A stretch of 29,529 nt of DNA from a virus. This document shows, one piece after another, positions 8,486 to 9,019 of this stretch; position 1 is the first letter of the stretch, and each line of letters begins with the position of its first letter. The notes beneath the pieces were generated by a model. It was given only the letters and a program-made list of their open reading frames with translations, searched no databases and had not been told where the DNA came from. A program made the translations under genes and the position numbers. Where the stretch lies: the IMG/VR virus record IMGVR_UViG_3300034957_000020, positions 1 through 29,529 of that record; one strand, written 5' to 3'.

Positions 8486-9019
8486 ATGGCACTCGTGACC
8501 TGCGGCCCGTGCACCGCCCGCTACCCGGACGATGTCGGCGCGTGCCCGAACTGCGGCTCCACCGCGCAGCAGGCGGCGGGCTCCGTGGTGCCGTCGGTCA
8601 CGGTCGCCTGCCTCACCGACTACTGCCCGGCCCGCGGTGTGGAGCGGCGCATCATGCTGCGCACCGCGGCCCTCGGCGTGCTGGAGCGGCCGACGCTCGT
8701 GTGCGCCTCCTGCCGCTGCCTCCTGCCTGAGCTGACCGAGGACCACGACATGGCGAAGATCACCGTTCACGGCGGCGCGAGCAACGCGTACGCCGAGCCC
8801 ACTGAGGGAGGCGAGGAGTCATCTCCTGGCAGCAGCTCGCCGACATCATCCGAGAAGCCCAAGACCTCGCCCGAGACGAGCGAGACCGTGAGCCCGTTGC
8901 CTGTCCGCACGACGGGGAGCCGCTCAAGACGGGGCCGGACGGCCGCCTCTACTGTCCCTTCGACGGATGGCGACCAGACGGAACCTATGTCGGACTCTGA
9001 CGAGGGCGGGACGCCATGA
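8486..9019 (+). CDS. Zinc-ribbon protein fused to a Ser/Thr-rich tail; possible internal start at 8750
   Basis: The ATG at 8486 follows the previous stop directly. Residues 1-75 carry paired cysteines (CGPC at 6-9, CPNC at 20-23, then C, C and CASC pairs), typical of small zinc ribbons. After ELTEDHD an in-frame ATG at 8750 begins MAKITVHGG, which I recall as the usual N-terminus of a separate small protein in related phages; this comes from memory and was not checked. The part encoded after 8820 is Ser/Pro/Thr-rich (SSPGSSSPTSSEKPKTSPE) and overlaps another reading frame that encodes a more protein-like sequence. So the locus may hold two products in this frame and a third in the overlapping frame. 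The stop overlaps the next ATG (ATGA at 9016-9019). Function is unknown. Confidence 0.65.
   Translation: MALVTCGPCTARYPDDVGACPNCGSTAQQAAGSVVPSVTVACLTDYCPARGVERRIMLRTAALGVLERPTLVCASCRCLLPELTEDHDMAKITVHGGASNAYAEPTEGGEESSPGSSSPTSSEKPKTSPETSETVSPLPVRTTGSRSRRGRTAASTVPSTDGDQTEPMSDSDEGGTP
8818..9000 (+). CDS. Nested, overlapping gene in another frame (CxxDG...C.DGW protein), start uncertain
   Basis: Frame 8818-9000 encodes about 59-60 residues: a helical start (SWQQLADIIREAQDLARDE) and then EPVACPHDGEPLKTGPDG and LYCPFDGWRPDG. The paired ACPxDGxPL and LYCPFDGW form looks like a small treble-clef or ribbon and is familiar to me from Streptomyces phage head genes (memory, unchecked). It lies wholly inside the 8486-9019 gene in the -1 frame. 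No ATG or GTG opens it: the codon at the ideal distance from GGGAGG (8806-8811) is GTC at 8818, followed by ATC at 8821. Options are a GTG-to-GTC change or sequencing error, a rare start codon, or frameshifting from the outer gene. Confidence 0.5.
   Translation, partial: VISWQQLADIIREAQDLARDERDREPVACPHDGEPLKTGPDGRLYCPFDGWRPDGTYVGL

Follow-up and report, generated by a model that had tools for sequence, protein, structure and literature searches.

The 29,529-nucleotide stretch of DNA analysed here (the window), taken from an IMG/VR virus record, belongs to an HK97-type phage. Comparison with homologous loci indicates that positions 8821-9000 are a real and conserved phage gene, which lies out of frame within the 3' half of an outer gene and at which ribosomes would start at an AUC codon. 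We put the probability of this reading at about 0.88. The outer/inner gene pair is preceded by a capsid gene (PF05065, E 2e-50) and followed by a gene for a head-tail adaptor (phrog_442, E 2e-10). From stop to stop, the inner frame extends over 8806-9000, and it contains no ATG, GTG or TTG codon. The features of the gene pair are compiled in Table 1.

Table 1. Location of the outer gene, the inner gene and the associated signals in the window.
Feature	Positions	Strand	Basis
Outer open reading frame, 177 aa	8486..9019	+	Open reading frame; layout repeated in homologues
Overprinted tail of the outer protein, about SPGSSSPTSSEKPKTSPETSETVSPLPVRTTGSRSRRGRTAASTVPSTDGDQTEPMSDSDEGGTP	8824..9019	+	Order-promoting residues 1.3% versus 11.9% expected
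Shine-Dalgarno (SD) site of the inner gene, GAGGGAGG	8804..8811	+	Anti-SD duplex energy; 9 nt before ATC
Putative inner start codon ATC	8821..8823	+	ATC/GTG pattern in overlapping versus non-overlapping relatives
Inner gene, 59 aa, (M)SWQQLADIIREAQDLARDERDREPVACPHDGEPLKTGPDGRLYCPFDGWRPDGTYVGL, stop TGA 8998-9000	8821..9000	+	Homologue scans; wholly within the outer gene, -1 frame

Homologues and properties of the two proteins

A query with the single inner protein matched 30 viral loci, while an alignment-based scan confirmed 526 relatives, the best 80 of which were kept. A second query alignment was headed by a non-overlapping member, which offsets the bias towards the nearest kin of the window, and further homologues were drawn from Streptomyces, Prauserella and other genomes. 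Removal of duplicates left 118 distinct homologues. The set comprises 104 loci in which the inner gene overlaps the outer gene, 11 non-overlapping loci, L184, which looks like a Rieske protein and was left aside, and L047 and L052, which are without a clear start of their own. An inner homologue was present in 2 of the 396 genomes of an Actinomycetota-wide sample, and a search of plasmids gave zero matches. Among 50,697 public phage records, the only relative was found in Streptomyces phage Dagobah, where gene 15 (QMP84393.1) is annotated as a separate, ATG-started hypothetical gene. The original prediction, made from the window alone, had described a compact ACPHDG...LYCPFDGW protein in a nested -1 frame, with GGGAGG six bases before 8818 and the codons GTC and ATC following. 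The coordinates and the site are correct, and the protein represents a conserved small phage family. Its impression that both frames were familiar from other Streptomyces phages is borne out by IMG/VR contigs and by prophages of Streptomyces, but among public phages it extends to Dagobah only, which has the non-overlapping form.

Members of the inner family share the signature [SA]W.QL.DI...(helix)...ACPxDGEPL..GPDG.L[YF]CP.DGWRPDG. The AlphaFold model of the inner protein (pLDDT 85.6, pTM 0.48) displays an N-terminal helix followed by Cys-bearing C-terminal loops, and a fold search with this model yielded zero PDB matches at E < 1. The C-terminal half (window 8899-8985, ACPHDG...CPFDGWRPDG) resembles the Rieske loops CPHxG...CPxHGWRxDG, except that the second ligand His is replaced by Asp. 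A sequence search of the PDB returned a weak match to Rieske oxygenase loops and nothing else, and the match to the Rieske Pfam family (E 0.052) stayed under the cut-off. Assignment as a Rieske [2Fe-2S] protein was rejected, since in most members the second His of the ligand pattern Cys-x-His...Cys-x-x-His is an Asp. Weak Rieske-like matches also came up in the search of Streptomyces genomes, and at least one of them (L184) looks like a Rieske protein. Judging by the position of the inner gene, with capsid genes on one side and head-tail connector genes on the other, its product may be a small accessory protein of the head or of assembly. A Sporichthyaceae MAG (L052, 1214-2647) carries the inner domain as an in-frame C-terminal extension of a long protein that appears to be structural, and this fusion may point to a role of the domain in the virion.

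The outer protein consists of a Cys-rich, zinc-ribbon-like N-terminal part, a conserved K-I-T-x-H-G-G motif and a disordered tail composed of Ser, Thr, Pro, Lys and Arg. Its N-terminal part is modular. An extra Cys-containing segment (like VTVACLTDYCPARGVERRIMLRTAALGVLERPTLVCASC) is located between the first Cys motif and KITVHGG in the window (8486-8750) and in L053, L032, L004 and L008, and is missing from other relatives. The tail also varies in length, ending 34 codons into the overlap in L014, L054, L063, L065, L072, L088, L104 and L115; in this short-tail group the inner gene continues and retains its start (ATC or GTG).

Start codon and Shine-Dalgarno site of the inner gene

Codons 8818 and 8821 of the window are GTC and ATC. 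At the position of the latter, in the same relative frame, ATC was found in 101 of the 104 overlapping homologues and GTG in 3 (L055, L088 and L097), whereas all 11 non-overlapping homologues, Dagobah gene 15 among them, start with ATG or GTG; as the overlapping loci are related and not independent samples, such contrasts are descriptive. ATC is kept in 64 of 65 clusters (< 85% nt identity). The coincidence of ATC or GTG in overlapping and ATG or GTG in non-overlapping members at one position places the start at 8821 and not at 8818. The codon that precedes ATC varies among the overlapping relatives (CGT 35, GTC 32, GCC 28, others 9), and GTC at 8818 was rejected as inner start for this reason. 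Of the options that had been considered for this gene, a rare start is thus supported, and family-wide, but it would be the ATC at 8821. The alignment that had been proposed to search for GTG or ATG at 8818 revealed these codons at the position of 8821, while 8818 varies freely. Loss of a GTG start in this particular copy is excluded by the presence of ATC throughout the family.

Canonical starts (ATG, GTG or TTG) were absent from the 24 codons downstream of ATC in all 104 loci. Upstream, 84 of the 101 ATC loci have none in the open inner frame, and an in-frame stop is situated three codons or fewer before the inner start in 64 of the 104. Extra codons between ATC and the conserved Trp are present in L008, L028, L085, L087, L093, L101 and L166. 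In these loci ATC adjoins the SD sequence and the Trp is displaced; because it stays by the SD despite the inserted codons, ATC behaves as a start codon and not as a conserved isoleucine. L055, one of the GTG loci, sits inside an ATC clade of a tree calculated from the connector gene. This nested position makes it look like a natural reversion, by which the ATC codon itself became a canonical start again. According to these comparisons, the inner gene almost certainly starts at ATC.

The GGGAGG sequence (8806-8811) ends nine bases upstream of 8821, and 9 nt is the commonest spacing between SD and start among the relatives. Its predicted duplex with the anti-SD sequence amounts to -14.1 kcal/mol in the window. 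Overlapping relatives (n=104) reach a mean of -15.2 kcal/mol, compared with -6.2 for the canonically started, non-overlapping relatives and -4.6 for random 22-mers of the window. The SD sequence is written into outer codons for Glu-Gly-Gly(-Glu), and the A of ATC is the mostly silent wobble base of an outer codon. An A is found there in 101 of 104 loci against a background of 6.5%. When the outer codon ending in this A encodes Val, it is GTA in 36 of 36 cases (5% at other places in the outer gene); TCA is used for Ser in 33 of 33 (3% elsewhere) and CCA for Pro in 28 of 30 (3% elsewhere). The outer amino acid at this site varies among relatives while the wobble base remains A. A similar bias was seen within the SD sequence, where outer Gly is GGT in 45 of 66 cases (12% elsewhere) and outer Ser is AGT in 17 of 17 (5% elsewhere). 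Judged from this codon usage, the SD wobble bases are likewise under selection.

Constraint on both reading frames and alternative explanations

A profile built from non-overlapping relatives only gave real inner proteins 93.1 bits (minimum 62.4), compared with 8.6 bits (maximum 39.5) for recodings that preserve the outer protein. In the opposite comparison, order-promoting residues made up 1.3% of the outer tail (61 relatives) and 11.9% of the tail in recodings that preserve the inner protein; in the +1 frame of non-overlapping relatives they account for 12.1%. Codon choice in the inner gene differs accordingly between the two forms. The ratio of CTC to CTG for Leu is 493:17 in overlapping and 12:26 in non-overlapping members, and that of GTC to GTG for Val is 170:2 and 6:9, respectively. 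An NTG codon of the inner frame would turn the overlapping outer codon into one for Cys or Trp, or into a stop. The outer frame remains open in 59% of the inner-preserving recodings, and its openness is weak evidence for that reason. By these measures, which are descriptive since the loci are related, both frames are under selection, as expected for an overprinted pair. This agrees with the conserved dual coding that had been predicted, as homologues of the inner frame exist and both frames are constrained.

The -1 relation of the frames, the lack of a canonical start and an SD-like element upstream would also be expected for a programmed -1 frameshift, by which the outer gene would give rise to a fusion of zinc ribbon and inner domain, with the SD-like element stimulating the shift as in dnaX. 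We consider such a frameshift, which the original prediction had offered as an option, improbable. With respect to ALTERNATIVES, it would have to occur without a conserved slippery site, since an X_XXY_YYZ heptamer exists in 3 of the 104 loci and the Z_ZZN tetramers in 40 of the 104 have no common motif. Pseudoknot-free folding of 34 loci gave no stimulatory structure downstream; the RNA was less stable than mononucleotide shuffles (mean MFE -23.6 versus -26.0). Moreover, the shift would be confined to about three codons in the 64 loci with a nearby upstream stop, relatives carry GTG or ATG at the very same codon, and in loci with inserted codons the ATC keeps its place next to the SD.

Absence of a canonical start from 101 of 104 copies might alternatively mark the inner frame as an untranslated relic, deprived of its start by the extension of the outer gene. 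This is very unlikely given that the inner protein (median pairwise identity 61%) is conserved far beyond the level forced by the outer frame, as seen in the profile scores, and that ATC and SD are conserved at sites synonymous in the outer frame. Equally doubtful is the converse explanation, in which the inner gene alone matters and a high-GC +1 frame yields the long outer tail as a side effect. The proportion of recodings that leave the outer frame open by chance is in its favour, but the scarcity of order-promoting residues, an inner codon choice far from that of non-overlapping relatives and the continuation of the outer frame from a conserved upstream domain all argue against it. Selection on two overlapping genes, the inner one with an AUC start, therefore remains the best explanation.

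Probable origin of the overlap and comparison with known systems

In five non-overlapping arrangements (L006, L113, L026, L150 and L168), the inner gene is preceded by an outer-gene relative, as recognized by zinc-ribbon-like Cys motifs and/or KITxHGG, and this relative ends before or at the inner start. The outer relatives of L006, L150 and L168 end in a SAP domain (PF02037, above the Pfam cut-off), whereas in overlapping forms its place is taken by a basic and disordered Ser/Pro tail. In L026, the outer stop (TGA) and the inner start (GTG) are interlocked in a GTGA sequence, and the frame relation is the same as in the overlap. The older layout was probably an outer gene ending in a SAP domain or in a GTGA overlap, followed by a canonically started inner gene, and the layout of the window, with a disordered tail over the inner gene and an AUC start, is likely the derived state. 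Conversion of a GTG(A) or ATG(A) start-stop overlap into ATC(A) would delete the outer stop and the canonical inner start at once, after which the outer protein would have gained its disordered tail by overprinting the inner gene. Restoration of ATG would recreate the outer stop if the next codon is AGC, and would otherwise put Cys or Trp in place of a conserved Ser. ATC may persist because ATG would damage the outer protein in one of these ways. About five changes between overlapping and non-overlapping states are needed on the connector-gene tree, which resolves more than a tree of the inner protein with its too few columns, and phage genes recombine; a single-step origin is thus a simplification.

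We infer that the inner gene is translated with formyl-Met at AUC. The strong SD would place the 30S subunit on the codon at 8821, and initiator tRNA would pair with its A and U while the third base is mismatched, as at Streptomyces infC. Compared with the outer protein, little inner protein would presumably be made, and IF3 would limit its output. As a general trend, third-base mismatches of the AUC kind initiate poorly in vitro (PMC10158994), so very little inner protein might be made.

With its ATC start codon, Streptomyces infC is a rare well-characterised case of a non-canonical start, while sigR has a GTC start and is repressed by IF3 (PMC5472188). The infC start region reads GGAGG(A/C).. 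followed by ATC AGC in 8 of 8 host genomes (seven from the Streptomyces searches, one from Prauserella). It is closely resembled by the phage inner start, which is often ATC AGC TGG after GGAGGTGAGGACGT. Both have the same ATC codon, GGAGG close upstream and often the same next codon, but infC is cellular, un-nested and autoregulated by its own product. The sigR gene resembles the inner gene in that a non-canonical start is conserved in the same host genus, lowering sigR output; it differs in having GTC instead of ATC, in encoding a cellular regulator, and in that a second frame imposing the codon was not reported there (PMC5472188). Dagobah gene 15 encodes a homologous small protein at the same place in the head-gene block, but has its own ATG in an ATGA overlap with the preceding gene and is un-nested. 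Overprinted nested phage genes are a general class, known for example from phiX174. The present pair shares with them the coding of two selected proteins by one stretch in different frames, and differs in that the younger frame appears to be the outer one and that the inner start is ATC family-wide.

The infC parallel raises a further, tentative possibility, which we regard as rather unlikely, namely that the AUC start is a reader of IF3 activity that ties a head-region protein to the host initiation machinery. Retention of the codon would then serve regulation, and the exclusion of ATG by the outer frame would be only part of the reason. Inner output would go up when free IF3 drops, maybe late in infection with ribosomes busy.

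In the open-licence literature, we found neither the inner gene nor the outer/inner overlap described, and no phage gene reported to start at ATC. To our knowledge, very few natural genes have a conserved AUC start. Gene callers limited to ATG, GTG and TTG cannot find the inner gene in its overlapping form, which constitutes a systematic blind spot. The phage family comprises over 100 sequenced loci, including natural versions with GTG in place of ATC, and can be compared with relatives that lack the overlap and with an ATC-using host gene, infC. Two questions thereby become testable, namely the protein yield of an AUC start behind a strong SD in Streptomyces, and the route by which a stop/start overlap develops into full overprinting.
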